From Desulfocapsa sp. (GTDB taxonomy: Bacteria; Desulfobacterota; Desulfobulbia; Desulfobulbales; Desulfocapsaceae): a stretch of DNA of 64,000 nucleotides. The translations under genes were made by a program, and so were the position numbers. Shown here piece after piece: positions 4,296-34,350 of the stretch. Every line of letters starts with the position of its first letter. The first letter of the stretch is position 1. The notes beneath the pieces were generated by a model. That model made no database searches and had not been told where the DNA came from. It saw only the letters and a program-made list of their open reading frames with translations. The stretch lies in the NCBI GenBank assembly GCA_022712895.1, contig JAFLJS010000075.1:1-64000 (forward strand), written 5' to 3'.

Positions 4296-4304
4296 TTTAA
4301 TAAG

Positions 4305-5155: not shown

Positions 5156-5163
5156 TAGCGCGT

Positions 5164-7592: not shown

Positions 7593-10500
7593 GTAGATCA
7601 GCTGAAGAGTATTTGGTTCTTGAATCCACAAAACTTGCTGCACAATGGCAGAAAAGAGCAAATGAACTGCTAACCCAGGAGGAAAAGTTTATTCAAGATC
7701 AGTTGAAACGTCTGCTTACAAATCCACACGACAAGGTTCTGCTGACAAAAATGATCGACCAGAGTTTCCGCTCTCAGGACCCCAAACGTATTGCAGATCA
7801 GCTCAGTAACCTGATGAAGGAGGAAGGGGTACCTGAGTTCCTTGGCCGGGTAGAAAAATTGTTTGTTCAAATGTTTATGGGGTTTGGCAAACATTTTTCT
7901 TCTATTGCTGTGCCGACAATGATCAAACAGATGCGTGCCGGATCAAGTCGGGCAATTATCCCAGGCGAATATGAAGAGTTACACAAACATCTCAAGAGGC
8001 GAAAAGAGCAGGGCATTCGGATGAATATTAATCATCTGGGAGAGGCCGTTCTTGGAGAAAAAGAAAGTTCCAAGCGCTTGGAAACCTATATTCGTGATAT
8101 GGAAGACCCGTATGTTGAATATATTTCCATTAAGATTTCAACTATTTATTCTCAAATCAGTTCTCTTGCCTTTGAAGAGACCGTAACCATTCTTCAGGAG
8201 AGACTGACAAAAATATACCGGGCTGCTAAACAAAATTTCTTTATCCGTGCGGATGGCACGAGGGTCACAAAATTTGTAAATCTTGACATGGAAGAGTACC
8301 GAGACCTGAAAATCACCTATGAAGCTTTTGTTCGCACACTAAATCAGGAAGAATTCAAGGAACTCTCAGCAGGTATTGTACTGCAGGCCTATCTTCCCGA
8401 TAGCTTTTCTGTACAGAGGCAGATGACAAAATGGGCAATAAATCGCGTGGCTGATGGTGGTGCTCCAATCAAACTTCGCATAGTTAAGGGTGCCAATATG
8501 GAGATGGAGAAGCTTGAATCGGCACTGTTTAATTGGCCCCTTGCTCCCTATGACAACAAGCTTGAAGTGGACGCCAACTATAAACGGATGGTCACTTACG
8601 GTATGAAACCGGAAAATATTAAAGCCATTAATCTTGGCATTGCATCCCATAACCTCTTTGAACTGGCCTACGCATCTGTTCTTGCCGATGTAAATAACGT
8701 GAGGGATTATTTTTACTTTGAAATGCTCGAAGGTATGGCAGACCATGTTCGAAGGGCACTCCAGGAAACTTCAGGAGATGTCTTGTTGTATGCACCGGTT
8801 GCAAGTAAGGATGAGTTCATTAATGCAATTGCTTATCTGATCCGGCGTCTTGATGAAAACACAGCTCCTGAAAATTTTCTGCGTTACGCACCCGATCTTG
8901 ATGTTAATTCTAAAGAGTGGCATTTTCTGCAAGATACATTTGTTCAGTCGTGTCAGAAACAGGAGACGGCCCAGGATTCCCCCAACCGCATCCAAAACAG
9001 GCTCACAGAGAATTTTCCTCCTTCCGTCTCAAGTTTTTACAGCAACATATTTGTGAATGAACCTGATACTGACTGGGCACTAGATGCGAGCAGGGAGTGG
9101 GCAGATTCTATTCGTGCAGAGTGGATGTGCTCAGCAGACGATAAACCTCACGAGATTCCAGTAGTAATAGCCGGTGAGCAATACTTTTCAGATCGAGAGC
9201 AAAGGGAGATGTTTGATCCCAATCGCCACGAGGAAGAAATTTGTGTGGCTACGTATGCACTTGGTACGGTAGCCGATGCTAAACGGGCTATTAAAACGGC
9301 AAAATCTGACCCTGATGGCTGGCGCAACTTGTCAATAAGAGAAAGGCATGAGGTGTTATCGCACGTGGCAATGAAACTCAGACGATCGCGAGGTACGCTC
9401 ATAGGAGCTGCTGCTGTAGATACGGGAAAGGTTTTTACAGAGGCCGATGTTGAAGTTTCAGAAGCCATTGATTTTGCAGAATTTTATCCTCACTCGGTGG
9501 CAGACTATGACAAAATTGCCACCATTGAACACAGAGGAAAAGGTGTGGCTCTGGTGATTTCTCCCTGGAATTTTCCAATAGCTATTCCTTGTGGTGGAAT
9601 TGTTACAGCACTGGCCGCGGGAAATACAGTCATTTTCAAGCCAGCGTCTGATTCGATTCTCACGGCATGGGAACTCTGCAAGTGCTTTTGGCGAGCAGGT
9701 ATTTCCAAAAACAGTTTGCAATTTATTCCCTGTTCTGGCGCGAGTGTGGGGCCGGTTTTAACCGCCTCCCCAGATGTGGATTGTATTATTCTCACGGGCG
9801 GGACAGATACTGGACTCTCCATTTTACAAAAAACTCCCGGTGTTTACCTTGCTGCTGAAACTGGGGGTAAAAATGCTACCATTGTCACGGATATGGCTGA
9901 CCGCGATCAGGCGATCAAGAATGTCGTACAATCGGCATTCAGTAACTGCGGCCAGAAATGCAGTGCCACTTCACTGCTTATTTTGGAAAAAACCATCTAT
10001 GACGATATTCATTTCAGAGAGCAACTGGTTGATGCGGCGGGAAGTCTGAAAACAGGGTCTGCCTGGGCATTCGCCAATAAACTTGGCCCTCTAATCAAAC
10101 CACCGAGTGGTGATCTAAAACGCGGCCTAACAAGTCTTGATGGAGGGGAAGAGTGGGCACTGAAACCGCAAATGCTTAACAACAATCCTTTTCTTTGGTC
10201 ACCTGGTATAAAGTATGGTGTTAGGCAGGGTAGTTACACCCATATGACCGAATTTTTCGGCCCACTTCTTGCCGTTATGCGTGCGGACAATCTTGATCAT
10301 GCTTTGGAGATGGTCAATCAGACGGGTTATGGTCTGACAAGTGGTATTGAAAGTTTAGACCCCAGGGAGCAGGAGGTATGGAAGAGTAGGGTTTTTGCTG
10401 GAAACCTGTATATCAATCGCGGCACAACCGGAGCCATTGTCCTGCGGCAGCCATTTGGTGGTTTGGGAAAATCAGCTCTGGGCCCAGGTTTAAAAGCAGG

Positions 10501-19436: not shown

Positions 19437-19593
19437 CAGCATAGCTTTTTGCGGGAATATTTTTTTTGAATCAAACTTGTCAAAGCCAACGGCAGGACAT
19501 ACCATGTCATTAAGTTGTTTTGGTAAGTTTTTTAATTAATTACTATTATAGCGAATTAAGATGAAATCGATAACTCTAAAGGGGGGTAGACTA

Positions 19594-20550
19594 ATGGTTG
19601 CATTTTCTCGATGGGACGACTGGCTGGTTGCAGAACATGAAATGATTGAAAGAGCCATGGAAGTGTTAAAGGTAAATTTGGACAAAGTGGCGAGTGGGAA
19701 ATATGACAAGGTTCAGATCGCCAGAGCCATAGATTTTCTCCTGGAGTTTGGTGATAGAATTCATAATACAAAAGAGGAGAAATTTCTCTTTCCCCTTATG
19801 GGTAAAAGAGGTGCCCCAACTGAAGGTGGCCCTATTGGTGTAATGTTACTAGAGCATGATCTTGAGCGGAAGCTGCTTGTTGAGATGCAAATGGCCCTTG
19901 GTTCGTTGAGTAGCTCCTCCGATAAAGACAAAGCTCTGTTTGTTAAAGAGGGGCAGGAATATTTAACTGTCCGGGCAGAACATATCTGGAAAGAGAATGA
20001 TATCCTCTACAATATGGCACGCCAGATTTTGACTGAAGCTGATATTGCGTATCTTCTTCAAGCGTTTAAAGATTCTGATCGTCAACATTATGGCGACGAT
20101 GCTTCAGCCAAGTTTGCAACCATGCTTCAAGAGGTCGAAGAAGGTGGCAAAAAAATGCGGTTGGTGGAGAATCTCAGTATGGATCAGCTCCATGCAATTA
20201 TGGAGACACTGCCGATGGAGGTTACTTTTGTTGATGCCGACGATACCGTTGCCTACTTTAACCGGCTGGATAAAGAAAAAATATTTGCTCGAACCCGGTC
20301 AGTTATTGGCCGTAAAGTGCACAAATGCCATCCTGAAAAGTCTGTGGATACTGTGCTCAAAATTGTTGAAGGGTTTAAAAACAAGACCATGGACAAGGCG
20401 GAATTCTGGATCAATTTTCGCGATGAGAAGATATTGATTCGCTATTTTCCTGTCTATGGTGACAACGATGAATATATGGGTGTCTTGGAAGTAACTCAGG
20501 AAGTTGCCTGGATTCAGAAGCTTGAAGGTCAGAAACTGCTACTGGATTGA
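19594..20550 (+). CDS. Hemerythrin-like protein with PAS domain
   Basis: The start at 19594 (MVAFSRWDDWL) is chosen because GGGGGG lies 7-12 bases upstream; an ATG at 19561 lacks a ribosome site. Residues about 5-165 form a hemerythrin HHE fold with candidate di-iron ligands in AEHEMIER, RIHNTKEEKFLFP, LLEHDLER and RAEHIWKEND. Residues about 200-315 form a PAS-type sensor (EVTFVDADDTVAYFNRLDK, VIGRKVHKCHPEKSVDTV). This combination resembles the DUF438/HHE-PAS proteins of anaerobes, probably sensing oxygen, NO or redox state. No output domain is present. A DUF1858-like gene follows. Confidence 0.85.
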   Translation: MVAFSRWDDWLVAEHEMIERAMEVLKVNLDKVASGKYDKVQIARAIDFLLEFGDRIHNTKEEKFLFPLMGKRGAPTEGGPIGVMLLEHDLERKLLVEMQMALGSLSSSSDKDKALFVKEGQEYLTVRAEHIWKENDILYNMARQILTEADIAYLLQAFKDSDRQHYGDDASAKFATMLQEVEEGGKKMRLVENLSMDQLHAIMETLPMEVTFVDADDTVAYFNRLDKEKIFARTRSVIGRKVHKCHPEKSVDTVLKIVEGFKNKTMDKAEFWINFRDEKILIRYFPVYGDNDEYMGVLEVTQEVAWIQKLEGQKLLLD

Positions 20551-20581
20551 TCGCTTGAGTAAAACTGTAGTGAGGTCCGTC

Positions 20582-20652
20582 AGGATCATGTTTGGTGTCA
20601 CGTGAGTGATGCATTAACATGATCCTTGGCTGGAACGAATTGTTACGTGACA
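20582..20652 (+). promoter_or_regulatory. Two mutually exclusive hairpins
   Basis: AGGATCATGTT (20582-20592) pairs perfectly with AACATGATCCT (20616-20626). TGTCACGT (20596-20603), lying in that loop, pairs perfectly with ACGTGACA (20645-20652). Because the arms interleave they form a pseudoknot or compete. They lie between the hemerythrin gene and the DUF1858-like gene, whose ribosome site begins 16 bases after the last arm. No T-run follows, so this is not a plain terminator. Confidence 0.5.
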
Positions 20653-20681
20653 GCGGTTTTTCCTGTCAAAGGAGTAAAATT

Positions 20682-20906
20682 GTGGAACTTGTAGGTGGCA
20701 TTGGTGACAAACCAATAAAAGAGGTCATTGATGAACATCCGAAAGTGGGTGAGATTCTTGAGAAGTATGACATAGGCTGCATTGCATGTACTGTCGGTAC
20801 CTGTCATTTTAAAGAAGTTGTCAAAGTCCATTTTCTGGGAGACGAAGTTGAGCAACAAATTGAAAAAGAGGTCAATGAGTATCTGTCCTCTGTGTTGGAA
20901 AAATAA
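20682..20906 (+). CDS. DUF1858-like small protein
   Basis: The start GTG at 20682 has AAAGGAG at 20668-20674 with a 7-base gap; an in-frame ATG at 20619 lies inside a hairpin and has no ribosome site. The 74-residue product contains KPIKEVIDEHPKVGEILEKY followed by DIGCIACTVGTCHF, like DUF1858/ScdA-type domains that accompany hemerythrins and hybrid-cluster proteins. Three Cys (CxxCxxxxC) could bind a metal or cluster. It ends 14 bp before the thioesterase gene, so the two are probably co-transcribed. Role unknown, perhaps in redox or NO response. Confidence 0.7.
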   Translation: MELVGGIGDKPIKEVIDEHPKVGEILEKYDIGCIACTVGTCHFKEVVKVHFLGDEVEQQIEKEVNEYLSSVLEK

Positions 20907-20920
20907 TTTCAGGAAGTGAC

Positions 20921-21430
20921 ATGAAAGAAATAAAAGTAACCCGCAAACAACCTAATTCTAAGATGTGTTTTGTTTGTGGGCTGGGAAATAATAGTGGTTT
21001 GAAAAGTCAGTTTTATGAACTGGAAACAGGTGAGTTGCTGGCCATCTTCCGGCCTACTACTGACCATCAAGGTTATCCCGGCCGTCTTCATGGCGGGTTG
21101 GCTGCAACAATATTGGATGAGACCATTGGCCGTGCTATTGTGCTTAAGCACAGTGACAATATCTGGGGAGTGACCTTAGAGTTTTCAATGCGGCTCAGAA
21201 AACCGATCCCTTTGGACAGTGATGTTAGAGTCCGCACACGTGTTACAAAAGAAAATAAACGTTTTTTTGAGGGCAGTGGAGAAATTCTTCTTGCGGATGG
21301 TTCAGTTGCCGTGGAAGGGGAAGGGCGCTACATGAAGATGGATATTGAAAAAATTACTGATTTTGATATCGATGCGCAAGAGTGGCGAGTGAATTTAATG
21401 AAGGATGATCCTGAAACGGTAAAACTCTAA
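20921..21430 (+). CDS. Hotdog-fold thioesterase (PaaI-like)
   Basis: A 169-residue single-hotdog protein with SKMCFVCGLGNNSGL at the N terminus, the active-site segment GYPGRLHGGLAATILDE and a C-terminal strand region. Such proteins hydrolyse acyl-CoA or aryl-CoA thioesters. The N-terminal CxxCG motif is common in one subgroup of the family. AGGAAG precedes the start. Substrate unknown. Confidence 0.82.
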   Translation: MKEIKVTRKQPNSKMCFVCGLGNNSGLKSQFYELETGELLAIFRPTTDHQGYPGRLHGGLAATILDETIGRAIVLKHSDNIWGVTLEFSMRLRKPIPLDSDVRVRTRVTKENKRFFEGSGEILLADGSVAVEGEGRYMKMDIEKITDFDIDAQEWRVNLMKDDPETVKL

Positions 21431-21457: not shown

Positions 21458-22174
21458 TTAGTGACAGACGGAGTAAACCTTGACACAGTTGCGGCCACTT
21501 TCTTTGGCATGATAAAGCGCATTGTCAGCGTGTTCGTTAAGGGTTTTATGTTCAATCGATTGTTCAGGAATAATGGATGCGACTCCAAGGCTGATACTGA
21601 TAAATGCAGAGATAGATGATTCCTGATGGGGGATTTGCAACTCTTCAATGGTAATTCGTGCCTTTTCAGCAATTGCATAGGCGGCGTCCTTATCGCATTC
21701 CGACAAGGTATAGACGAACTCTTCCCCTCCATATCGGGCAAGAAGATCAGTGGGGCGTTGAATAACACTGTTCAAAGTTTCGGCCACTTTTTTGAGACAT
21801 GCATCTCCGGCAGGGTGACCATAACAATCGTTATATAATTTAAAAAAATCAATATCTATCATAACCAGTGACAAAGATAGACGATTTCTGCGACAACGTC
21901 GCCATTCTCTACTGAACATCTCGTCGTGGAAACGGCGATTGGCAACCCCGGTTAGGCCATCAAGGCTAGAGATCTTTTGGAGTTCGTCATTAACCTTTGC
22001 CAGGTTCGCATTGATCTCTTCCATTCTGGCGAATTGCTGTACAACAAGGTCTGCTGTGATGGATGCAGCCTCTCTGGAGGCTAAAACTTCATTATAGAGT
22101 AATTGATTCTCCTCCAGCAGTTCAGCTCTGTTTTTTTGCGAGGAAGGTTTGTCCTGAAACCATATTTTACTCAT
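21458..22174 (-). CDS. Diguanylate cyclase (GGDEF)
   Basis: It makes c-di-GMP from two GTP. The 238-residue soluble protein has an N-terminal helical/coiled-coil region (residues 15-70), then the GGDEF domain: SSLDGLTGVANRRFHDE, LVMIDIDFFKLYND with metal Asp residues, and active-site GGEEF at 149-153. The inhibitory site RxxD (R140-D143) is present five residues before it, so product inhibition is likely. It overlaps the hydrogenase maturation protease gene by 8 bases and is the last gene of the minus-strand hydrogenase operon, which implies that its output is tied to hydrogenase expression or state. It has no sensory domain of its own beyond the helical segment. Confidence 0.92.
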   Translation of the reverse strand: MSKIWFQDKPSSQKNRAELLEENQLLYNEVLASREAASITADLVVQQFARMEEINANLAKVNDELQKISSLDGLTGVANRRFHDEMFSREWRRCRRNRLSLSLVMIDIDFFKLYNDCYGHPAGDACLKKVAETLNSVIQRPTDLLARYGGEEFVYTLSECDKDAAYAIAEKARITIEELQIPHQESSISAFISISLGVASIIPEQSIEHKTLNEHADNALYHAKESGRNCVKVYSVCH

Positions 22175-22583
22175 TTAAGGTCTCCAAGGCCAGTGATGCT
22201 GCGGCAGCAATATTAAACTTATCTGCAATTCCGTTGAGTCCTATGACAGTTACCTCGACTTTTGGAATCAAGCCAAGTTCCGGTAAACATAAAAGAAGAT
22301 AATGAAGACCGGCAGAGTGCCCATATTCAACAGCTTCACAATCGCTCAGTTCATCATAGCCGATGCTACACAGTTCTCCTGGTGTACCAAATCCAGATAC
22401 GGAATCTATAATAACCACACGATCCGATTCTTCAAAGTGACGAAGCAAGTCAATCCCTGCAAGTCCTGCGTCAACAATGGCAATGGATGGAGAAAGGGTA
22501 TTTTCAAATAAGTAATCATACACTTGTGGGCCGAAGCTGTCTTCTGCACAATATCTGTTTCCGACACACAAAATTGTGTTCAT
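22167..22583 (-). CDS. NiFe hydrogenase maturation protease
   Basis: An endopeptidase of the HyaD/HycI family that trims the large subunit C terminus after nickel insertion. The 138-residue product shows LCVGNRYCAEDSFGPQV, IVDAGLAGIDLL, VVIIDSVSGFGTPGEL and GHSAGLHYLLL, giving the acidic residues and His that bind nickel in the family. It starts 3 bases after the large subunit stop, as expected for its partner, and overlaps the GGDEF gene. The gene is somewhat shorter than HyaD (about 160). Confidence 0.88.
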   Translation of the reverse strand: MNTILCVGNRYCAEDSFGPQVYDYLFENTLSPSIAIVDAGLAGIDLLRHFEESDRVVIIDSVSGFGTPGELCSIGYDELSDCEAVEYGHSAGLHYLLLCLPELGLIPKVEVTVIGLNGIADKFNIAAAASLALETLNE

Positions 22584-22586
22584 TGT

Positions 22587-24095
22587 TCAAGCTCCAAACT
22601 GTACTCGGCTGAATGTGACCCCTTTTTTGCTGACAGCATGCACCGAGCAGACCATACAAAGGTCGAAACTTCGAACGACATGCCCAACTTCAACTGGGTT
22701 TTTAGCATCCCGAACAGGAGTACCGATGAGAGCTTCTTCAATGGGGCCACGAACATCCTGATTATCACGAGGAGAAGCGTTCCAGGTAGTGGGTGAAATT
22801 ATTTGATAATGCTCAATACGGCCATCTGATATTTGCAGCCAGTGTCCCAAAAAGCCACGTGGTGCCTGTACAAGTCCAAAACCTTCCCCATCAATAAAAT
22901 CGCCAGGAGACCGATAAAAGGGTGCCTTGAGATCAATATCATTAAACCATTCTTCCATAAGGGGTAATAACCTTGCAGGTCTTGTCAAACGAGCAAGTTC
23001 ACGGACGAGGACAGAACTGCCTCGTTGCCTTACAAGTTCTTTAAAAAGAGGATTTTCATTAATGAGTAATTCGGCAAGGGGACCGGTTTCAACGGGATGT
23101 CCATCATATCGGGGAGCCTTGCACCATGAATATTTGTTCGATTTATCTGGTACAGCAGGTCTGGTTGTCGTATCCATGGGGTGTCCCCCTTTTCCTGTGT
23201 CCAGATAATAGGAATAACGAATCTGTTCGGAAACCTCTTTTTGTGAAAATTCCAGTACTTTCCCGTTTACTGTAACACCACCACTCACAGCGCCGCCTGT
23301 TGCAATTCCAGGTAAACCATGTTCAGGCACGGCCAGGTAGGCATCGTGTCCTATGCCGATGGTATCAAGTCCAAACTCTTTGCCACAACGAATAAGAAAA
23401 CCAAGGTCACCTTTAGCGTGATTTTTCTTTTCAAGCCACCTATCAAGTTCTTCAGGGCTTTGAATTTGTAGCCACTTCTCAATAGAACACCCTAATACTT
23501 GTGTTTCGTACCAGCGACGAAATCCATCGAGAATCATTTTGCATTGTCGTAAGTCGGCGCCACTGGGGCCGGATGTGATTCCTCCTGGCACGATAAAAGA
23601 TGAGTGGGGCCACTGTCCGCCAAGGATAGCAATAACCTCAGGGATTTTTTTACTCGCCTGAATGACCTCAATAACACTTTTTCCCTTATACGGTTGATAT
23701 CTTTTTACTGCTTCTTCGTACAATGATTTTGTTTTGTAGCGTTTGTTTGCGAGATCGGCTGAAAACATCAGGGTAACATGGCGAACATCGTTTTGGAGCT
23801 TTTCGGCAGCTAGTACCAGATGTCTGATTAGCTGGCCATTATAGGAAACTGCGGAGTCTGAGATATTTTCAAGGGCCCTGGCTGCCGCGAGTAAGTGACT
23901 GCTACTGCATATTCCGCAGACCCTTGGAGTGATAACAAGACCATCAAGGGCTGCTCGATCGGCCATCATTTTTTCAATACCCCGGTACATTGTACCAATC
24001 ATCCATGCATCGGTGACAACTCCGTTGTCAATGGTAACTTTTACCTCAAGGTCTCCTTCGACTCTGTTCAGAGGCATTTGGATAGTTTTAGCCAT
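22587..24095 (-). CDS. NiFe hydrogenase large subunit
   Basis: The catalytic subunit for H2 oxidation or sensing. The L1 motif is PRVCGICSSSH (Cys 60 and 63), and L2 near the end is DLCMVCSVH (Cys 480 and 483), with Leu where Pro is common. Sixteen residues follow the L2 His, so a cleavable C-terminal extension is present, matching the protease gene downstream. Classic regulatory hydrogenases (HupV/HoxC) lack this extension. The 502-residue length is typical. No Tat signal occurs in either subunit, so the enzyme is cytoplasmic, as in group 2 hydrogenases. Placement in a sensory subgroup (2c-like) is inferred from the linked diguanylate cyclase. Confidence 0.93.
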   Translation of the reverse strand: MAKTIQMPLNRVEGDLEVKVTIDNGVVTDAWMIGTMYRGIEKMMADRAALDGLVITPRVCGICSSSHLLAAARALENISDSAVSYNGQLIRHLVLAAEKLQNDVRHVTLMFSADLANKRYKTKSLYEEAVKRYQPYKGKSVIEVIQASKKIPEVIAILGGQWPHSSFIVPGGITSGPSGADLRQCKMILDGFRRWYETQVLGCSIEKWLQIQSPEELDRWLEKKNHAKGDLGFLIRCGKEFGLDTIGIGHDAYLAVPEHGLPGIATGGAVSGGVTVNGKVLEFSQKEVSEQIRYSYYLDTGKGGHPMDTTTRPAVPDKSNKYSWCKAPRYDGHPVETGPLAELLINENPLFKELVRQRGSSVLVRELARLTRPARLLPLMEEWFNDIDLKAPFYRSPGDFIDGEGFGLVQAPRGFLGHWLQISDGRIEHYQIISPTTWNASPRDNQDVRGPIEEALIGTPVRDAKNPVEVGHVVRSFDLCMVCSVHAVSKKGVTFSRVQFGA

Positions 24096-24122
24096 GAATT
24101 GTAGTATCCTTTTTTGAACAGG

Positions 24123-25058
24123 TTAAACCCGATTTTTACGTTTGGTGAGTCGTTCAGGAGCCGCAGCTGCCGCCATGCCCTTGTAGGCGAGATAGTGGGC
24201 CCGACTGACGCCGTTTGGTAGTTCGAGGGGTACGTTAACAATATTTGGTGTATGAAAGAAAGCATGATTTTTAGGAAAATCAGGCTGGGTACAACCGAAA
24301 CAGGGTACTCCTGCATTTGTTTTTGAGTTTCGCTGATTCCAGAGCACCTTGTTACAAGGGGCGTAGGTGAGAGGCCCGCGACAGCCAAGATGAAAGAACA
24401 TACACCCTCTTCCACCAAAATCTTCTTCTTCTACACGGTATTCATGGTATTCGTTTCTGGTACATCCTTGATGCACGAGCATACTGTACCAGTCTTTGGG
24501 GCACTGGTTTTCATTAAGAACGGGCATCTCTCCATCACCAATAATACAAAGTACATCTTTTAAGATCGCTGGATGAACAGGACAGCCAGGAAGATTAATA
24601 ACAGGTCTGTCGCGACGGGATCTAAAGTTCTTTCCCAGTAAACCGCCACATTTCTCTTGGGTGAATTGAAGACCACAAGCTTCCGTTTCACCACTGTTAC
24701 CAATGCCACCAAAACTTGCACAAGTACCAACTGCAATGACTACTGCTGCCTGTTGGGCAAGATCCTTAACCAGCTTGGATTTAGGCTCACCTCTGTAGGT
24801 GTGGAACATTCCGGTTCCATCAGGACCAGTTGCTACAAAGCCTTCAACCAGCAGAATATCCAGAGGGCGTCTGCCACTGCGCAGATCAGCAATGATTTTA
24901 TCGTGTTCCTGAACTGTCCCTCCGCTGAGAGAAGGGTGCCACAGCATTCGAAGGTTTTGTGCTTCGAATAACTCCACCATGTCGGGAGTTTCCATGGCGA
25001 GAAGGCTCATGGTATCACCACCGCAAGCTCCGCACTGCAGCCAGTAAAGTGTTCGCAT
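24123..25058 (-). CDS. NiFe hydrogenase small subunit
   Basis: It carries the electron-transfer Fe-S clusters. The 311-residue product starts directly with LYWLQCGACGGDTMSLL (proximal cluster Cys 9 and 12), then GTCASFGGIGNSGET, INLPGCPVHP, and Cys-rich distal segments GCRGPLTYAPC and GVPCFGCTQPDFP. There is no twin-arginine signal and no C-terminal membrane anchor, so it is soluble and cytoplasmic. GGAGGATATA gives a strong ribosome site before ATG 25058. It is first in an operon with the large subunit (27 bp apart), protease and GGDEF gene. Confidence 0.93.
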   Translation of the reverse strand: MRTLYWLQCGACGGDTMSLLAMETPDMVELFEAQNLRMLWHPSLSGGTVQEHDKIIADLRSGRRPLDILLVEGFVATGPDGTGMFHTYRGEPKSKLVKDLAQQAAVVIAVGTCASFGGIGNSGETEACGLQFTQEKCGGLLGKNFRSRRDRPVINLPGCPVHPAILKDVLCIIGDGEMPVLNENQCPKDWYSMLVHQGCTRNEYHEYRVEEEDFGGRGCMFFHLGCRGPLTYAPCNKVLWNQRNSKTNAGVPCFGCTQPDFPKNHAFFHTPNIVNVPLELPNGVSRAHYLAYKGMAAAAAPERLTKRKNRV

Positions 25059-25329: not shown

Positions 25330-26274
25330 ATGGCACGATTTGAAGACCTTAAATTAAGTGATGATTCAGCTGTGACAATTGAATGGGATATGACACCGGA
25401 TTTAGCTTTTTGTATGTTTTCTGCAAAAGGTTTGCGGGATGAGTTGAGTAATAGTGGGGAACGGGTTTGTTACTTTTTTATAGATAATTACGGGGATAAT
25501 CCAAAGCTGTATCTGATGGAAAGGGGCAGTCGGTATGTTGATATTATAGCCGAAATAAAGGCACCTCAGCAACTGTTGTTGGAAAGTATCCAACGCCAGG
25601 GGCAGACACTCAACGTTAAAGATAATTTTCCGGTGGATTCTCAGCTCAAAGAGTGGCTACTGACAGAAGTGGTTGAGGTGGATGAAAGTAGTTTTCTTCT
25701 TCCGGTAATCCCTGAGAAAGAGGATATTGAATTTATGGGTGATCCGTTGCCCCAGCGCAAAACAAGGGCAATTAATACTCGTCTATTCTCTTTACCGACA
25801 GACGAATGTCATCTCAATGATAATGAAATGAATGAGCTTATAAAACAGTGTGGATTTTCTGATCAGATATTTAATCCACAATCTACTTTCCTCAATGATT
25901 TTGTTGAGAGTGGAAACATACAAACCGTAATTGATGAGAATACAGGATTGATGTGGCAGCGTTTTGGATTGGATCTTTGTTCAATACGGAATATGAAAAA
26001 CAAAATTGAAGCACTGAATGAAAAAGGATTTGCCGGATACCATGATTGGCGCATGCCCACTGTGGATGAAGCCTTATCGCTTATGGAAGTCAAATCAAAC
26101 GAAAAAGGGGTATATCTCCATCTCTGTTTCTCCAAAGAGCAACCATTCATTTTTACATCAGCAAAACGAAAGCCAACTGGTTACTGGTTTGTTGATTATA
26201 AACAGGGGAAAGTTTACTGGTCTTCTGGAACAGTACCAGGTGGGTTTTGCAGGCTATGCAGGAGTGCAGACTGA
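25330..26274 (+). CDS. DUF1566-domain protein
   Basis: A 314-residue protein, apparently soluble, divergent from the hydrogenase operon. Residues 1-190 resemble nothing I recognise. The C-terminal 100 residues form a DUF1566 domain: DENTGLMWQRFG, GYHDWRMPTVDEALSLM, FIFTSAKRKPTGYWFVDYKQ and GGFCRLCRSAD. DUF1566 domains are lectin- or formylglycine-like folds with no set function, often on secreted proteins, but no signal peptide is seen here. The start at 25330 follows GGAG. Confidence 0.75.
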   Translation: MARFEDLKLSDDSAVTIEWDMTPDLAFCMFSAKGLRDELSNSGERVCYFFIDNYGDNPKLYLMERGSRYVDIIAEIKAPQQLLLESIQRQGQTLNVKDNFPVDSQLKEWLLTEVVEVDESSFLLPVIPEKEDIEFMGDPLPQRKTRAINTRLFSLPTDECHLNDNEMNELIKQCGFSDQIFNPQSTFLNDFVESGNIQTVIDENTGLMWQRFGLDLCSIRNMKNKIEALNEKGFAGYHDWRMPTVDEALSLMEVKSNEKGVYLHLCFSKEQPFIFTSAKRKPTGYWFVDYKQGKVYWSSGTVPGGFCRLCRSAD

Positions 26275-26459: not shown

Positions 26460-27080
26460 TCAGGCAGCAGCATCATTGCAAATAGTTGTGATTTTATTCC
26501 AGTCTTCGGCAAGCACAGCATCCTTTGGCGCAAGCCATGATCCGCCGACACAGGCCACGTTTTTTAGAGCCAGATAGCTTTTGTAATTGGCAGGGGAAAT
26601 TCCTCCCGTGGGGCAGAAGGTAATTTGGGGAAAGGGGCTACCCAGTGATTTAAGCATTTCTATGCCACCGGCTGCTTTTGCAGGAAAAAATTTGAATTCT
26701 GTGAGTCCTGCTTCCATGCCGTACATAAGTTCAGACGCTGAAGAGATACCAGGGATTAGTGGAATAGTGCTTTTGCTGGCAGCGTCTAACAATTTTGGAG
26801 TAAGTCCCGGACTAATGGCGAACACCGCACCAGCTTCTGTAATAGTGTCTAAATCCTTTTCTGAGGTGACAGTGCCGGCACCGACAATGGCGTCTGGCAC
26901 TTGCTCGCTTATGCGTTGTATCGATTCCAGGGCGGCATCACTGCGCAATGTGATTTCAAGTACTCTAACACCACCAGCGACCAGGGCTTTGGCGAGCGGG
27001 ACTGCGTGGGCAGCGTTTTGAATGACCATTACCGGGATAACAGGCCCTGTTCTCAGTATTTCTATTGCTGTAAACTTCAT
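26460..27080 (-). CDS. eda: KDPG aldolase
   Basis: It splits 2-keto-3-deoxy-6-phosphogluconate into pyruvate and glyceraldehyde 3-phosphate, the last step of the Entner-Doudoroff pathway. The 206-residue product has the class I aldolase motifs: [28 protein letters not shown] (catalytic Glu), GAGTVTS, and the Schiff-base Lys in LTEFKFFPA, then FCPTGGIS. It is the last gene of a six-gene minus-strand operon, 34 bp after edd. Confidence 0.95.
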
Positions 27081-27114
27081 AGTATCATTCCAATTAGTTT
27101 AGAAAATGTATCCG

Positions 27115-28950
27115 TTACATTTCATCAACATAGGTAAAAATAGAACTGGCCCCTTCTTCAGCTCCTAAGAGATTTTTTCGTAACGGTGCAAAAATCTGAC
27201 GGCCAAGGCCATGACGAGTTTTGCTTAAATCGGGTTTGTTGATGGCTCGTTTTTGAAGAATATCGGCATCCACCTGTAGGTCAAGAACGCTGTTGTGTGC
27301 ATCCATAATAATCATATCACCGTCTTGTACCTTGTTCAGCAGCCCTCCTGTAGCAGCTTCTGGAGTACAGTGGATGGCAAAGGGTACTTTGCCGGAGGCA
27401 CCAGACAACCGGCCATCGGTTACAAGACCTATGGTATGACCTCTATCCATACAGATAGAGAGGTACATGATCAGTTTATGCAGTTCGGGCATACCGTTGG
27501 CGCGAGGTCCCTGAAAGCGAACGACTGCTACCAGATCTCTGTTTAATTTGTCAGCTTTAAAAGCTTCTTCCAGTTCAAGCTGTGAGTTGAAAACCATAGC
27601 AGGAGCTTTTACGTAGGTCTTTTCGCCGTCTTCCAGGGCGGAGATTTTCATGATGGCACGTCCGAGGTTACCCGAAAGCACTTTTATTCCGCCCAATACT
27701 TCAAAAGGAGAGGTTGTTGTGGAAATAATAGTGCTGTCTTTTGCTCTTTTGGGACCATCTTGCCAGGAAGTTTGTTGCGATCCCACAGGAAGCGAAGGTT
27801 CCTGTAGATATCTTTCAAAACCTGGCCCTGCGACTGTTTGAACGTCTTCGTGAAGATATCCTCCTTCAAGTAATTCGCGAATAAGAAGGCTCATTCCCCC
27901 GGCTTGTTGAAAAGAGTTGATGTCTCCGGCACCATTGGGGTAAATACGAACAAGAAGAGGCGTTACATCAGAAAGCTCTGCAAAATCATCCCAGTCAATC
28001 CGAATACCTGCTGCTCGTGCAATGGCAACCAGATGCATGGTTTCATTCGTGGACCCTCCAGTGGCCATAAGGCCAATGATGGCGTTTACAACTGATTTTT
28101 CACTGATAACATGAGCCAGTGGTGTGTAATTGTCACCCATGTGTGTCATTGTCGTAATCTGCTCTGCGGCAGAGCGTGTCAAGGCGTCCCGCAGTTTTGT
28201 CCCAGCATTTACAAAAGAACTTCCGGGAAGGTGCATGCCAAGCATTTCTGCCATCAGTTGATTGGAATTTGCCGTTCCATAAAAGGTACAGGTACCGGGG
28301 CTGTGATACGATTTTACTTCGGATTGAAGAACCTCTTGTGCTCCGACTTCTCCTTTGGCAAATTGTGCTCGAACAATATTTTTATCTTCATTAGATTGAC
28401 CGGTGGTCATTGGTCCTGCGGGAATGAGGATGGTGGGCAGGTGTCCAAACTGTAATGCGCCAAGGAGCAAACCTGGCACAATTTTGTCACAAACTCCGAG
28501 AAGAATGGTACCGTCAAAGACGTTGTGAGATAGGCCAATAACCGTGGCCATGGCAATAACATCACGGCTCATAAGGCTCATATCCATGCCATCTTCGCCT
28601 TGGGTCACGCCATCACACATACCGGGAACGCCTGCCGCAAATTGTGCATTCCCTCCAGCACCAGCCACTGCCTCTTTTATAATTTCCGGATATTTCCCAT
28701 AAGGTTGGTGCGCAGAAACGACATCATTGTAGGAGGAAATAATAGCAATATTAGGTGTGTTTTTATCAAAAAGAGCGGCACGACAACCACCGGTACAACC
28801 TGCAATATCATGGGCAAGGTTGGAGCTTTGGAGTTTATTGCGAAAAACGCCATCACCTTTTGCTGCGTCCATGCGGGCAAGGTACGTTTTTCTATGCATT
28901 TTACTACGTTCTATGATGCGGTCAGTAACTTTTTGAACAGTGTTATGCAT
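27115..28950 (-). CDS. edd: 6-phosphogluconate dehydratase
   Basis: It dehydrates 6-phosphogluconate to KDPG using a [4Fe-4S] cluster. The 611-residue length is standard. Cluster and family motifs include [72 protein letters not shown] and [18 protein letters not shown]. It lies between pgl and eda, so all three ED enzymes from phosphogluconolactone onward are in one operon. Confidence 0.96.
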
Positions 28951-28962
28951 GGTGGTTATTCC

Positions 28963-29667
28963 TTACTCAGCCCAGTAAATGCTGAAAGGTGTAGAGTTTT
29001 GGGAAAGAATAAAACGAATGGGGAGCTCTTCAGAAGGGCCTTCCTGTTGTGCATGCTCAAGGACATTTTTCTTCTCCTGACCGACGATATGGAGAATTAT
29101 ATGATGTGAGTTGAGGATTGCAGGAAGAGTTAGAGTCATTCGTTCATGTGGGGCTGTAAGCGGTGCAATCCCGATGCACATATTTTCTGATCGCATATTC
29201 GTTGCTGCGGCTAATTTTTGTGCACCCGGAAAAAGAGACGCCGTATGTCCATCACCACCCATGCCTAAAATTAAGACATCAAAAGGCATGGGAATTTTTT
29301 GCAGGTGCTGTTCATATTCCTGCATGCCTTCACTGGCAGTTAAGGCTGCGTTTTTCATTCCTGTAAAATTGGCCACAGCAGCATTATTTTGTAAAAGGTG
29401 GGTTCGAACAAGTTTTTCGTTAGAGTCCGCATCATCAGGTTCAACCCAGCGTTCATCCACGAGGCAGATAAAAACATGTTGCCAGGGTAATGTCTGAGTG
29501 GATATTTTTTTAAAGAGTTCAATAGGTGTAGATCCTCCTGAAACAGCAAGGCTGGCGTGGCCATTGGCGGTGATTCCCTGTACAAGGTAATCTGCAATAG
29601 TGGTTGCAAGGGTTACTAAAAGTTTTTCCCGACTCTGAAAAGAATGAAAGTGAGCATTGGACTGCAT
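28963..29667 (-). CDS. pgl: 6-phosphogluconolactonase
   Basis: It hydrolyses 6-phosphogluconolactone to 6-phosphogluconate. The 234-residue DevB-type product shows ASLAVSGGSTPIELFKKIS, VDERWVEPDDADSNEKLV, ILGMGGDGHTASLFPG and the C-terminal HHIILHIVGQEKKNVLEHA. It starts one base after the AOR stop and ends 12 bp before edd. Glucose-6-phosphate dehydrogenase, needed to supply its substrate, is not in the window. Confidence 0.94.
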   Translation of the reverse strand: MQSNAHFHSFQSREKLLVTLATTIADYLVQGITANGHASLAVSGGSTPIELFKKISTQTLPWQHVFICLVDERWVEPDDADSNEKLVRTHLLQNNAAVANFTGMKNAALTASEGMQEYEQHLQKIPMPFDVLILGMGGDGHTASLFPGAQKLAAATNMRSENMCIGIAPLTAPHERMTLTLPAILNSHHIILHIVGQEKKNVLEHAQQEGPSEELPIRFILSQNSTPFSIYWAE

Positions 29668-29668
29668 A

Positions 29669-31411
29669 TTATTTATCTCCAGCCAGTTGCATTATGGCCT
29701 GTCCATACCCAGTTTTTAAACTGTCCAGGTAGGCAGCATCGATTGGGCCTTTCCAGGTTTTAATTTTGTAGAAACGTTTTGGAATGGTTATGGCTTCAGG
29801 GGTAAATCCGGTGGCTATTCGTGTTTGCCAGCGAAGTTTTTGGATATGTCTTCCTGCATCATCAATGCTACCTGCAAGCTTAGTGTAACCAACTGATTGT
29901 AAACATTGAGCAAGCAGGTCGTTTTTGTAGACCCCTCTGGCAAAGAGACAGGAAACCATGGAGGTCATAAAGGCCCGACCGGATTCATCGTCAATCAGGA
30001 ATTTAATAACACCCTCAATATCCTGATCCGAATGTTTCTGGTCGTAAGCATAACCACCACTATCCAAGTGAGAATGTCTGAATCCAAGGGTCTGGGCAGC
30101 AAAAAAGACTTCTCCGGTGGCATAACCGGCCATTTCCTGTCCCAGAACACAGGCAAAATCAGCACCACCATATTCAGCTGCTGCTTTCAGGCTTCCCTGA
30201 CCGAGCAGTTTGTAAAAGTCATTGCTCGAATTTCCAAGATGTTGGGTTGCGAGTTGATACGCTTCTGCGTCGCCAAAACGAAGCGGCACAATTGTTTCAG
30301 TTTCCGAAATAAAACCCTTTTCGGTGGCTTCAGTTGCCCAGGCCAGAGCAACACCACCCGACATCGCATCGAGACCTACCTTTTCCATCACATCGAGGAT
30401 ATTCAAAACAGATCTGGCTTCTGTAACATTAAGCATTGTACCCAAAGAAAAAATAGGTTCATAATCGTAGGCAACCTGCTTAAATGTGTAGCGGTGGTCA
30501 GCATTGAACATCTCACGGACGCAGCCAACATGGATACATCCCACGGGACATCCTGAGCAGGCTGAATTACGCAGCAAGGTATCGGTGGCAAAACGTTCAC
30601 CATTTATCCCATCTATTGCAGGATCACTTGTCGCCTGTAGATTTCGCCAGGGCAGGGACTCTATATCATTTAGCCCCTGTAAGTTGGCAGGTGTTCCCAG
30701 GTTATGATATTTTTTCATCATATCTGTGGCGGTGACCTGAGTAAACACTTCAGCGTAGAGTTTTGAGTAATCTTTACCTGGAGGAGTGTCAAATATGGCA
30801 TCACCTTGAATTACTATGCCTTTCAGGTTCTTTGCACCTAGTGCTGCGCCACCGCCAAGTCTGCCAAAATGGCGGTAGGTGTCAGCATTAATGCAAGACA
30901 TTGCAACAAGTTTTTCACCAGCAGGGCCAATGCGCAAAATTGAGCGGTGACCAGATCCTTTATACATTGATCGCAGAATCTTCCCAGTTTCAAGGACGTC
31001 CTTGCCCCTCAGAAATTCAATGTCCTTAATATCCAGGTTTCTAGAACTTACATTAACACAACAGAGACGTTTAGATTTGCCGGTGATAACAAGAGCATCC
31101 AGTTTGGCAAAGCGGAGGGCGAGGGCAGATCTTCCTCCGGCGTGACTTTCGGTGTACTGGTTATGATAGGGAGACTTAAAACTACAGACCGTTTTACTCA
31201 TTAAAGGGAAGTAACCAGTGAGGGGGCCTATTGCAAAAATCACAGGTTGTTGCGGATCATCCCAGGCTTTGTCAGCAAAGCCATATTTGTTGAAGAGCAT
31301 GGCGGCTAGACCACTGCCTCCTACCTCACTGTTGCGCCCATCTTCCTCAACAATTCTTCCCTTGCCAGTGGAAAGGTTAACAATCAGCACTCTAAAATGA
31401 TCAGCTATCAT
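29669..31411 (-). CDS. Aldehyde:ferredoxin oxidoreductase (tungsten family)
   Basis: AOR enzymes oxidise aldehydes to acids with a tungsten-pterin cofactor and reduce ferredoxin. The 580-residue product has VGGSGLAAMLFNKYG, a pterin-binding SHAGGRSALALRFAK, RFGRLGGGAALGAKNLKGI-like sequence and cluster Cys in CSGCPVGCIHVGC, with a further Cys near the end (TSMVSCLFARG). It overlaps the preceding four-cluster ferredoxin gene by four bases (ATGA). In this operon the natural substrate could be glyceraldehyde 3-phosphate or glyceraldehyde made by the ED pathway, giving a ferredoxin-linked bypass. That is inferred from context only. Confidence 0.9.
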   Translation of the reverse strand: MIADHFRVLIVNLSTGKGRIVEEDGRNSEVGGSGLAAMLFNKYGFADKAWDDPQQPVIFAIGPLTGYFPLMSKTVCSFKSPYHNQYTESHAGGRSALALRFAKLDALVITGKSKRLCCVNVSSRNLDIKDIEFLRGKDVLETGKILRSMYKGSGHRSILRIGPAGEKLVAMSCINADTYRHFGRLGGGAALGAKNLKGIVIQGDAIFDTPPGKDYSKLYAEVFTQVTATDMMKKYHNLGTPANLQGLNDIESLPWRNLQATSDPAIDGINGERFATDTLLRNSACSGCPVGCIHVGCVREMFNADHRYTFKQVAYDYEPIFSLGTMLNVTEARSVLNILDVMEKVGLDAMSGGVALAWATEATEKGFISETETIVPLRFGDAEAYQLATQHLGNSSNDFYKLLGQGSLKAAAEYGGADFACVLGQEMAGYATGEVFFAAQTLGFRHSHLDSGGYAYDQKHSDQDIEGVIKFLIDDESGRAFMTSMVSCLFARGVYKNDLLAQCLQSVGYTKLAGSIDDAGRHIQKLRWQTRIATGFTPEAITIPKRFYKIKTWKGPIDAAYLDSLKTGYGQAIMQLAGDK

Positions 31412-31827
31412 ACTTTTTTCTCCTCCATCGCGACGGTTTCCATCTCAAGGCAGTTGTGCGGACAGAAATCGACGCATCGACCGCAATGAATGCAGACATA
31501 AACGTTGCCGGATCTATCCTCGTAGATAGCATCAATGGGGCAGGCTGTGACACAGGCACCGCAATTTATACAGAGTTTTTTCTTCACAATCACGCCACCA
31601 CCCTTTCTTTGAGAAAATGCACTGGTGGGACAGGCATCAGCACAAGGGGCAGGATCACAGGCCAGACAATGATTAGCAGTAAATCCTGTGGTGAGACCAC
31701 CCGATGATTTTATTCGGATACCGGCACTGTCCCAGGAAAGCTGTTTGTGCACAAGGCGTGCACAGGAAAGAGAACAGGAGTGGCAGCCGATGCAGCGGGA
31801 AATATTGGGAGTGCTTAGAATTTTCAT
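31408..31827 (-). CDS. Four-cluster [4Fe-4S] ferredoxin-like protein
   Basis: The 139-residue product contains four cluster motifs: CIGCHSCSLSC, CLACDPAPCADACP, CINCGACVTACP and CIHCGRCVDFCP, sixteen Cys in all. Proteins of this HycB/CooF-like type pass electrons between an oxidoreductase and its acceptor. It overlaps the AOR gene, so it is most likely the AOR electron-transfer subunit. It begins 4 bases downstream of the glgP stop on the minus strand. Confidence 0.92.
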   Translation of the reverse strand: MKILSTPNISRCIGCHSCSLSCARLVHKQLSWDSAGIRIKSSGGLTTGFTANHCLACDPAPCADACPTSAFSQRKGGGVIVKKKLCINCGACVTACPIDAIYEDRSGNVYVCIHCGRCVDFCPHNCLEMETVAMEEKKV

Positions 31828-31830
31828 GCG

Positions 31831-34350
31831 TTATGGCCTATGTCTGGGGGAAAAGAGCAGGCCGTTCTCTGGAAGCGATTTCCATTTGAGCTGGACGGGG
31901 AAGGGTTTGACATCCCAGATTTTCTTAGCATAATCGGCAATGGATCTGTCAGAGGAAAACTTACCCATTCTGGCACTGTTGAGGATAGACATACGGGTCC
32001 AGTCATTTTTGTCTTTATAGGCAGCAGAAACTTTTTCCTGGCAGTCGACATAGGCTTGATAATCCGCCAGTAACATATACTGATCATCATAGAGCAAGGA
32101 ATCTATGATGGGACGGAACAACTCTTTATCTCCATGGGAAAAATGCCCAGACGCAATCAGGTCAATGGCTTGACCAAGTTCTTTGTTTTGCCGGTAGTAA
32201 TCCCTGGGCGTATATCCTTCAGCCTGTCGCTGCATAACCTCTTCTACTGTGAGGCCAAAGAGGAAAAAGTTTTCGGCCCCGACTTCTTCACGGATTTCGA
32301 CATTGGCACCATCAAGTGTTCCGATGGTGAGAGCGCCGTTCATGGAAAATTTCATATTCCCGGTTCCAGAGGCTTCCTTGCCAGCAAGAGAGATTTGTTC
32401 GGAGAGATCGGTCATGGGATAGACGGAATGGCCAATCTTCACGTTATAATTTGGAATAAAAAAGATCTTGAGCATGTCTTTTAGATCGGGATCACTGTTT
32501 ATCACACGGGCAACTGAAGTTATCAGTTTGATGATCCTTTTTGCCATAAAATAACTCGGTGCTGCTTTGCCGCCAAAAACGAAGAGACGAGGGGGCATAT
32601 CGATATTTGGATTGGCTTTGATCCTGTTATAAAGTGTGACAATATGTAAAACATTCAGGTGTTGACGTTTGTATTCATGGATTCGTTTAACCTGAACGTC
32701 AAACATGGCTTTATGATCTACTGCAATTCCCTGTTGCTGCTTTATGATGTCAGCAAAATCTTGTTTATTCTGCTCTTTTACTCCTTGCCAGGCATCCTGA
32801 AAACTAGAGTCTTCGGCCAGTGGAACCAGTTTTTTCAGTTCCCGAAGATCCGTTATCCATTTGTCGCCTATGGCTTCAGAAATGAGATTTGTGAGTCGTG
32901 GGTTGCTCACTGCAATCCAGCGTCTTGGGGTGACGCCATTGGTGATGTTACGGATTTTCCCAGGATACATACTATTCCAGTCAGCAAGGGTGTGTTTGCG
33001 TAACAGGTCGGTATGCATAGCAGCCACACCGTTTATAGCTTTTGATCCAATGCAGGCAAGGTTTGCCATACGAATATATTTCGGATTTGTTTCGGTAATG
33101 ATTGACATCCTGTTAACTCGGGCATGGTCTCCAGGGAATTTCAGTCGTACTTCATCAAGGAAGCGCCTGTTTATTTCAAAAATGATTTCCATATGTCGCG
33201 GTAACAGATCGGTGAAGAGTTCAATCTGCCATTTTTCCATGGCTTCAGGAAGAAGGGTGTGGTTGGTGTAACAAAGTGTTTGTCTGGTGATATCCCAGGC
33301 TTGATCCCATTCATAGAAATGGATATCCACTAACAAGCGCATGAGCTCAGCAACTGCAATGGACGGATGCGTGTCGTTGAGCTGAGCAGCAAAGCCTTCG
33401 TGAAAATTATCAAGGCTCTTATACATAAAAAGGTGGGTCTGAATCATATTTTGCAAAGAACATGAAACGAAAAAATATTGCTGTTCCAGCCGTAACTGCT
33501 TCCCAGCAAACTGTTCATCATTTGGGTATAAAACTTTGGTGATGGTCTCGGCCTTGATTTTATCTTCAACGGCGCCGTAATAATCTCCGGTGTTAAAATC
33601 ATCAAAATCAAAGGAGCTGTGTGCCTCTGCACTCCACAGGCGAAGAAGGTTTACGTTGTTAACTTTATATCCGGGAACTGGTGTGTCGTAGGGGACACCG
33701 GTTATCAGGCGAGCGGGAATCCAACGATGCCTGAGGTTCCCTTTTTCTCCAATATATGTTTCCGCATAGCCGCCAAAACCGACATTGCAAGCCAGATCGG
33801 GCTTTTTGATTTCCCATGGATTGCCAGGTTGCAACCAGGTGTCACTGAGCTCTTTCTGCCAGCCAGAGACAATCTCCTGGTCGAACATGCCATGTTCGTA
33901 TCTAATGCCATATCCAATGGCTGGGATTTGTAATGATGCTAAGGAGTCAAGGTAACAGGCAGCAAGGCGGCCAAGGCCACCGTTACCTAAACCTGGTTCT
34001 TCTTCGTGGTCGATTATCTCTTTGAGGTTGAGCCCTGACTCTTCTGCCGCCTGGGCAAAATCGTCATAGAGACCGAGATTGACCAGATTGTTATGCAGGT
34101 GTGGGCCCATAAGAAATTCTGCCGAGAGATAGCAGACGATCTTGGATTCTTTTTCGAGCAGCGCTTCAACAGAGTTGATAAAGAGGTGCTGCATTTTATC
34201 ACGAAGGGTGTAGGCGACAGCCAGGTAATAATCGTTAATGCGTGCTGTTCCAGTGGTTACGCCTTGTTTGTAGAAAATGTTATAGGCAAAAGCACGTTTT
34301 AATACATTAATACGTTCCTGCTGGTCGTCCACTGTCTTAGACTGACTCAT
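31831..34350 (-). CDS. glgP: Glycogen/alpha-glucan phosphorylase
   Basis: It releases glucose 1-phosphate from glycogen or maltodextrin. The 839-residue product has the family landmarks LAEFLMGPHLHNNL (near residue 80), EEEPGLGNGGLGRLAACYLD, AVQLNDTHPSIAVAELMR-like sequence, VFGGKAAPSYFMAKRIIKLI and the PLP Lys in GTGNMKFSMNGALTIGT. It is the first gene of the operon and starts at ATG 34350 after GGAGGG. The 12-bp palindrome CCCTCCGGAGGG (34356-34367) contains that ribosome site. Together with pgl, edd and eda it links storage glucan use to the ED pathway. Confidence 0.96.
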   Translation of the reverse strand: MSQSKTVDDQQERINVLKRAFAYNIFYKQGVTTGTARINDYYLAVAYTLRDKMQHLFINSVEALLEKESKIVCYLSAEFLMGPHLHNNLVNLGLYDDFAQAAEESGLNLKEIIDHEEEPGLGNGGLGRLAACYLDSLASLQIPAIGYGIRYEHGMFDQEIVSGWQKELSDTWLQPGNPWEIKKPDLACNVGFGGYAETYIGEKGNLRHRWIPARLITGVPYDTPVPGYKVNNVNLLRLWSAEAHSSFDFDDFNTGDYYGAVEDKIKAETITKVLYPNDEQFAGKQLRLEQQYFFVSCSLQNMIQTHLFMYKSLDNFHEGFAAQLNDTHPSIAVAELMRLLVDIHFYEWDQAWDITRQTLCYTNHTLLPEAMEKWQIELFTDLLPRHMEIIFEINRRFLDEVRLKFPGDHARVNRMSIITETNPKYIRMANLACIGSKAINGVAAMHTDLLRKHTLADWNSMYPGKIRNITNGVTPRRWIAVSNPRLTNLISEAIGDKWITDLRELKKLVPLAEDSSFQDAWQGVKEQNKQDFADIIKQQQGIAVDHKAMFDVQVKRIHEYKRQHLNVLHIVTLYNRIKANPNIDMPPRLFVFGGKAAPSYFMAKRIIKLITSVARVINSDPDLKDMLKIFFIPNYNVKIGHSVYPMTDLSEQISLAGKEASGTGNMKFSMNGALTIGTLDGANVEIREEVGAENFFLFGLTVEEVMQRQAEGYTPRDYYRQNKELGQAIDLIASGHFSHGDKELFRPIIDSLLYDDQYMLLADYQAYVDCQEKVSAAYKDKNDWTRMSILNSARMGKFSSDRSIADYAKKIWDVKPFPVQLKWKSLPENGLLFSPRHRP

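Follow-up and report, generated by a model that had tools for sequence, protein, structure and literature searches.

What is a cytoplasmic [NiFe] hydrogenase doing in an operon that ends in a diguanylate cyclase gene? The question is raised by a 64,000-nucleotide stretch of a Desulfocapsa sp. genome (contig JAFLJS010000075.1, positions 1 to 64,000; hereafter the window), where four intact minus-strand genes at 25058-21458 encode, in order, the hydrogenase small subunit, the large subunit, a maturation protease and a GGDEF protein (Table 1). An earlier note on this DNA had described the four genes as tightly packed, and the coordinates and Pfam families bear this out: successive genes are separated by 27 bp and 3 bp, and the last two overlap by 8 bp, an overlap which is also present in the two nearest relatives. 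The four-gene order is conserved in relatives with large-subunit identities of 85% and 74%, and the layout is therefore not a product of chance. Compared with the nearest relative, the ratio of nonsynonymous to synonymous substitution rates (dN/dS) comes to ~0.04 in each subunit gene and 0.29 in the protease gene; these are rough figures, because dS exceeds 2 (saturation) for both subunits and could not be computed for the GGDEF gene. We consider it probable that these genes form a cytoplasmic group 2c H2 sensor with a directly attached cyclase, in which the hydrogenase docks on a helix at the start of the cyclase and H2 changes cyclase activity.

The evidence for this reading begins with the first ~60 residues of the downstream partner proteins, which are alike in several of them despite differing domains. 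We built a profile of the conserved 45-residue motif (the coupling helix) from eight partner proteins and iterated it over 10,174 six-frame open reading frames (ORFs) in 96 loci: the window, 12 loci from relatives, 80 from a scan of named genomes and 3 plasmid records, with one contig counted twice (L030 and L045). The profile matches 84 ORFs, in 83 loci; the full-sequence E value is 1.9e-13 for the weakest helix-bearing ORF, whereas E is 1.1 for the best helix-free ORF. The loci without it are L035, L036, L037, L039, L040, L111 and L121-L127, 13 in all. On a large-subunit tree of 110 rows, made by a quick method with support only from the Shimodaira-Hasegawa-like approximate likelihood ratio test (SH-aLRT), the window enzyme falls within a 92-row clade (support 99, starred). 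The helix starts the signalling protein in 88 of the 89 rows of what we call the helix clade, whatever the output, or in 82 of 83 when the six rows that came from helix searches are excluded. The contig of the sole exception, L111, ends ~0.5 kb past the large subunit. Among all ORFs in the loci of the 21 tree rows outside the helix clade, none carries the helix.

Genomes were also searched with the helix alone, in sets which overlap and in a first pass which may miss diverged copies. For genomes that supplied query rows, the result tells only that the helix is absent elsewhere, because the query contains their own rows. Eight of 56 relatives' genomes have the helix, at one place each, and these are the eight that have a hydrogenase of the helix clade (Fisher p 7e-10; four of the eight had supplied query rows). 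Three others, G037, G041 and G050, encode large subunits at 40-45% identity which lie outside the helix clade, and have no helix. A census of the order (257 genomes searched) returned 41 helix places in 36 genomes, 27 of them newly opened and 14 from earlier loci; 40 are downstream of hydrogenase genes, and the remaining one begins at base 155 of its contig. Two phyla were sampled. In that of the window, the 296 genomes searched yielded 5 places, in 5 genomes, and in that to which a Rhodocyclaceae genome belongs, 397 genomes yielded 6 places, in 5 genomes; every one of these places is beside a hydrogenase. The genomes of 45 of the 80 named loci have 48 places in 42 genomes, with 47 beside hydrogenase genes (one adjoining only the protease gene, at a contig edge) and one orphan. 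Conversely, the helix led to 27 regions that the hydrogenase search had missed: 24 have subunit genes upstream (incomplete in L176 and L248), and the rest are L177, with only a protease gene at a contig edge, L242, cut by the contig end, and L174, the orphan. The link between the helix and the hydrogenases of this clade is near-exclusive. As a side observation, the helix-bearing kinase of L248 is preceded by a 562-residue frame (4851-6539) with a small-subunit-like start and a large-subunit-like end, too short for both, which reflects either decay or an assembly error.

What follows the helix varies. We scanned 67 complete partners of 84, leaving out six of the window type (including a duplicate) and 11 truncated ones: HisKA and HATPase domains are each found in 64, REC in 57, Hpt in 25 and GGDEF in 2, while one short partner has none of these. 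A gene for a REC-GGDEF protein often follows the helix-bearing kinase gene. Among cultured carriers, Desulfopila aestuarii and Desulfogranum mediterraneum (L073 and L075) have the kinase type. Since the direct partner in most relatives is a histidine kinase, the kinase-free form of the window is the unusual one, and because the same helix begins the relatives' kinases, often with REC-GGDEF next, the window can be regarded as a shortened circuit that dispenses with both kinase and receiver. On the large-subunit tree, the enzymes of the window type (helix followed by a bare GGDEF domain) make up a single clade of five (support 99, starred). This type occurs in seven of the 257 genomes of the order, from two families and with the window's genome included; hydrogenase genes adjoin the cyclase in six of them, and in the seventh the contig starts with the cyclase. 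A third form, helix-PAS-GGDEF, is found at L086, L115 and L184. In L053, a metagenome-assembled genome of Chloroflexi, two different helix-bearing kinase genes (2983-5868 and 7595-8445) lie behind one hydrogenase, as if one sensor fed two outputs.

The window's GGDEF protein is predicted to be a diguanylate cyclase with intact A-site and I-site, as the earlier note had it. GGDEF is the sole domain found in a Pfam scan, which returned no PAS, REC or kinase domain, and the AlphaFold2 model (mean predicted local distance difference test score, pLDDT, 89.9) shows a single unbroken helix at residues 16-70 running into the GGDEF domain. Apart from this helical N terminus, then, no obvious input domain is seen, again as claimed. 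The protein scores 150.1 bits against the SiaD model, below the cut-off of 290, and this is a general GGDEF match. Its GGDEF domain groups with 20 of 23 REC-GGDEF proteins from relatives' hydrogenase loci (support 90/94), separate from 23 rows of other GGDEF domains of its own genome (two rows identical). In seven of 11 operon-bearing genomes, which have 10 to 41 GGDEF matches each, the operon's own GGDEF is the best match to that of the window. Loss of the kinase and receiver, with the helix joined to the GGDEF domain, would fit this grouping, which does not prove it. Approximately unbiased (AU) tests do not establish that the helix-GGDEF and helix-PAS-GGDEF forms arose separately: p is 0.09 on the GGDEF tree and 0.44 on a hand-picked subset of the large subunits (48 of 110 rows). 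A second AU test, forcing the window-type GGDEFs together with all other GGDEFs of the genome, gave p 1.6e-5, which says little because those other GGDEFs are diverse.

We wondered whether the helix might be a mere dimerisation stalk of an old kinase family, inherited along with the hydrogenase, so that the cyclase answers some other cue or is always on. One long predicted helix is like the stalks of other cyclases, and in Foldseek the window cyclase finds its best PDB match in a fusion of a GCN4 zipper with the WspR GGDEF domain. Kinases dominate the partners, and the AU tests give no firm evidence that the helix-GGDEF forms arose separately. Against such a role, conservation extends far beyond a coiled-coil stripe. 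The helix is gap-free in all 49 copies aligned (of 84), and 11 of the 15 positions in residues 34-48 are conserved (entropy up to 1.2 bits; 83 full copies), where a heptad stripe (2/7) alone would give ~4; the conserved positions cover all but ~120 degrees of the helix. Because conservation exceeds the coiled-coil stripe, the helix probably both pairs in a dimer and contacts something else. It is also kept in front of kinase, GGDEF and PAS-GGDEF outputs alike, it is rarely found away from a hydrogenase (one orphan), and the end of the small subunit is conserved along with it, as described below. We hold a stalk of this kind to be an unlikely explanation. The helix belongs to no shared Pfam or NCBIfam family (scattered matches, best E 0.0037 and 0.0046) and has no PDB match at E 1, and the kinase HoxJ does not match its profile. 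Nor, in a search of five proteins, do the partners from the helix-free sister clade (E 0.05 to 1.4), which start with coiled-coil-like stretches too.

The small subunit suggests where the helix might bind. Its C terminus follows the consensus GV.RAHY..YK.MAAAAAP..L..R in the clade, with few exceptions, and differs in 2a-type enzymes, 2b-type enzymes and the helix-free sister clade. Fourteen small-subunit positions are conserved in the clade (n=87) and rare in 17 others, by cut-offs set after the alignment was seen, and six of these 14 fall within the final 24 residues of the 311 (p 2e-4 for a stretch chosen post hoc). The C terminus is thus a natural candidate for the contact with the helix. 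There are precedents in other systems. The C-terminal domain of HoxB is responsible for interaction with the kinase HoxJ (PMC8229454), and the cyclase SiaD is activated when SiaC binds to its stalk (PMC8457831). The earlier note had suggested that the helix could dock to the hydrogenase: conservation of the helix and its near-confinement to hydrogenase-adjacent proteins much strengthen this, and the docking itself we infer.

HydDB lists group 2c as "Diguanylate cyclase-linked (putative)", of undetermined role, which may sense H2 and regulate via cyclic di-GMP (c-di-GMP; PMC5037454). Genes of this group may share transcripts with those for cyclases and phosphodiesterases, and the group is largely confined to sulfate reducers and methylotrophs from aquatic habitats (PMC4853749). 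By its position in the tree, rather than by HydDB's own classifier, the window hydrogenase appears to be a [NiFe] group 2c enzyme, and since the tree places it there, H2-to-c-di-GMP signalling has already been proposed for its kind. The earlier idea of a sensory group 2 hydrogenase tied to c-di-GMP is accordingly supported, while the link itself turns out not to be unusual; it cannot be counted as new, because HydDB states it already (PMC5037454). In keeping with group 2c, a diguanylate cyclase is co-encoded, its gene running into that of the protease by the 8 bp given above. A Methylococcaceae member (L100) falls inside the same large-subunit clade as the window enzyme. The L2 motif is SFDLCMVCSVH in all five window-type enzymes and does not match the published 2c consensus SFDxCLVCTVH (PMC4853749); the mismatch is not decisive, because five rows of the 2a-type clade carry that consensus too. 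An alignment of nine large subunits shows no variation at the four Ni-Fe cysteines.

Group 2b was rejected for the window enzyme. The four HoxC/HupV-type references form a clade of their own (support 100, starred), and none has a tail after the last ligand His, vs 16-17 residues in the window enzyme and its four closest relatives (16 in the window). The retained tail and the dedicated protease do set it apart from classic regulatory hydrogenases, as had been noticed before. Group 2a was rejected as well: the 2a-type rows, of which five are plasmid references and three are actinobacterial loci, form a separate eight-row clade (support 100, starred), and the window enzyme is outside it although the nearest solved structure is of the 2a kind. 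The labels 2a-type and 2b-type are our own, from gene annotation, operon content and general background on these enzymes.

An uptake or electron-supplying hydrogenase, with a cyclase gene that is a passenger or regulates unrelated things, is nevertheless the next alternative to weigh. The examined Fe-S cysteines are kept (one is variable in the clade), the tail is like that of 2a-type enzymes, and the closest solved structures are 7uur and 7utd ("Hydrogenase-2, small subunit") for the small subunit and 7uus and 7utd for the large, all of which we take to be Huc, a group 2a uptake enzyme. However, the gene map and the Pfam families of the window's proteins show neither an electron-transfer gene nor an anchor gene in the operon. 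None of the TPR, NifU and NHL companions seen in two 2a-type operons is in the window operon either, and signalling genes stand behind the hydrogenase in most relatives. The earlier note's observation that the subunits lack a twin-arginine translocation (Tat) signal and a membrane anchor also holds: since the small subunit begins right with the cluster fold (MRTLYWLQCGACGG), no Tat signal is seen, and the subunit genes are not followed by one for an anchor. That note had set its proposal against placement in an uptake group with no recurring GGDEF neighbour; the enzyme lies outside both the 2a and 2b clades, and helix-GGDEF proteins recur in the seven genomes above. We regard an uptake role as decidedly unlikely. 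Separately, the small subunit has an extra Cys at residue 9 (25032-25034), near the first cluster ligand, in 5/5 window-type and 29/70 kinase-type enzymes but 0/5 2a-type and 0/4 2b-type references, and the cluster type may vary within the clade.

The hydrogenase fold could instead sense another cue, such as redox state, O2 or CO, and relay it to the cyclase. Ni-Fe sites react with O2 and CO, and a convergent hemerythrin-PAS gene is close by (19561-20550), yet both the Ni-Fe site and the cluster ligands are intact, which suggests that the enzyme has retained H2 chemistry, and we hold a cue other than H2 to be very improbable. Reverse flow, with the cyclase or c-di-GMP controlling the hydrogenase through docking of the same helix, is the least credible alternative, given the sensor-type kinases at this place in most relatives.

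In the signalling reading that we favour, the protease would mature the large subunit, and the two subunits would bind the cyclase helix (~18-62, as a dimer stalk), probably via the peptide at the small subunit's C terminus. The complex would then change upon H2 turnover or when the Fe-S chain is reduced, and the stalk would shift, altering the pairing of the GGDEF domains and so setting c-di-GMP output, with the I-site providing product feedback. H2 is the presumed signal, and it may switch the cyclase either on or off. More broadly, the helix may be a portable plug, such that a group 2c hydrogenase can drive any output module that starts with it, with the last ~30 residues of the small subunit as the socket. 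Evolution would have placed the helix in front of hybrid kinases and PAS-GGDEF proteins, and the window lineage would have combined it with a bare GGDEF domain derived from the response regulator of the operon itself, which would be the shortest H2-to-c-di-GMP route among those seen. We give this wider proposal even chances.

Several observations weigh against these conclusions. The AlphaFold2 model of the small subunit is unusable at the proposed contact (mean pLDDT 54.5, C terminus <40). Support for the helix clade is only 84 and, like that for the GGDEF grouping, not starred; another GGDEF outscores the operon's own in four of the 11 genomes (the latter ranking second in three and seventh in one). 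The operon is patchy, present in 3 of 20 genomes of the genus. The orphan helix (L174:5129-7207) starts a PAS-kinase-REC protein of an Anaerolineae genome with no hydrogenase nearby; that genome has a helix-type hydrogenase elsewhere (L059), and the orphan may act as an additional receiver for that sensor. Finally, the helix-free sister clade (L035, L123 and L127) also has signalling genes near the hydrogenase, so the helix is not the sole coupling mode, and another may operate there. These genes encode a SpoIIE-type phosphatase, a kinase and a GGDEF-EAL protein.

Since HydDB (2016; PMC5037454), group 2c enzymes have been classed as putative H2 sensors, and no coupling element is named in the literature searched. 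One neighbourhood study tabulates an EAL/GGDEF/PAS gene set among [NiFe]-hydrogenase neighbours (PMC12727194); within the available parts of the open-licence literature, we found no mention of a shared coupling helix. As far as that literature shows, the 45-residue helix, the matching end of the small subunit and the kinase-free form are new, the class being known as a proposal. The helix is a sequence marker that separates the clade from the 2a-type and 2b-type enzymes compared, and together with the co-conserved peptide it offers two definite surfaces to test. The window system, which naturally lacks the kinase, is of a size that could be rebuilt in vitro, and, if the proposal is true, a swappable helix could be used to build H2-controlled outputs.

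Table 1 Features of the hydrogenase-cyclase operon, in window coordinates.
Feature	Position	Strand	Description
Small subunit	24123..25058	-	311 aa; Pfam Oxidored_q6 and NiFe_hyd_SSU_C; no Tat signal seen
Small-subunit C-terminal peptide	24126..24221	-	Residues 280-311, LPNGVSRAHYLAYKGMAAAAAPERLTKRKNRV; candidate docking site
Large subunit	22587..24095	-	502 aa; Pfam NiFeSe_Hases; Ni-Fe ligands C60, C63, C480, C483
Large-subunit C-terminal tail	22590..22637	-	16 residues, counted from the last ligand His; presumed protease-cleaved
Hydrogenase maturation protease	22167..22583	-	138 aa; Pfam HycI; NCBIfam TIGR00072 above cut-off
Diguanylate cyclase (predicted)	21458..22174	-	238 aa; helix stalk and GGDEF
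Coupling helix	21989..22123	-	Cyclase residues 18-62; 45-residue conserved motif; profile and reverse searches
GGDEF domain	21488..21967	-	Pfam GGDEF, E 2.9e-49
Active site GGEEF	21716-21730	-	Residues 149-153; intact
I-site RPTD	21746-21757	-	Residues 140-143; intact

The genes flanking the operon, a thioesterase-like gene (20921-21430) and a DVU0772/Lcl-type gene (25330-26274), are both on the opposite strand, and the operon therefore stands alone. Hydrogenase maturation requires HypD, whose gene is found elsewhere in the genome, outside the operon. On the plus strand at 19561-21430, hemerythrin-PAS, DUF1858-like (below the Pfam cut-off) and thioesterase-like genes stand in tandem, convergent with the operon; this adjoining row is possibly concerned with redox or O2 sensing. 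On its other side, the minus strand at 26460-34350 encodes Entner-Doudoroff type enzymes (2-keto-3-deoxy-6-phosphogluconate aldolase and members of the dihydroxy-acid/6-phosphogluconate dehydratase and 6-phosphogluconolactonase families), in one row of genes with an aldehyde:ferredoxin oxidoreductase, a polyferredoxin and a carbohydrate phosphorylase. A ferredoxin-coupled Entner-Doudoroff type route would be surprising for a sulfur bacterium.

Set beside known systems, the window hydrogenase is most like group 2c as described, being likewise a cytoplasmic two-subunit enzyme with signalling genes directly downstream. The stated host range of sulfate reducers and methylotrophs (PMC4853749) agrees with the Methylococcaceae member of the window's clade, whereas the label "cyclase-linked" contrasts with a clade in which most members' direct partner is a kinase. 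Huc provides the closest solved structures for both subunits, but it belongs to another clade with other companion genes, and no helix was found in the 2a-type loci. In HoxBC/HoxJ (group 2b), as proposed here, a hydrogenase serves as sensor for an output protein, with the HoxB C terminus as the contact (PMC8229454); the window enzyme differs in its separate clade, in its retained tail and protease gene, and in having a GGDEF protein in place of the kinase. On the output side, WspR provides the closest solved GGDEF structures and the relatives' REC-GGDEF proteins are among the closest sequences, but unlike WspR and PleD the window cyclase has no receiver domain and therefore no phosphorylation input. 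The SiaD-SiaC pair of Pseudomonas, at rank 10 in Foldseek for the window cyclase, differs in that SiaC is no hydrogenase and the match to the SiaD model is only a general one; it nonetheless shows a short cyclase with a helical stalk being switched by a stalk-binding protein (PMC8457831), the role which we propose for the hydrogenase.

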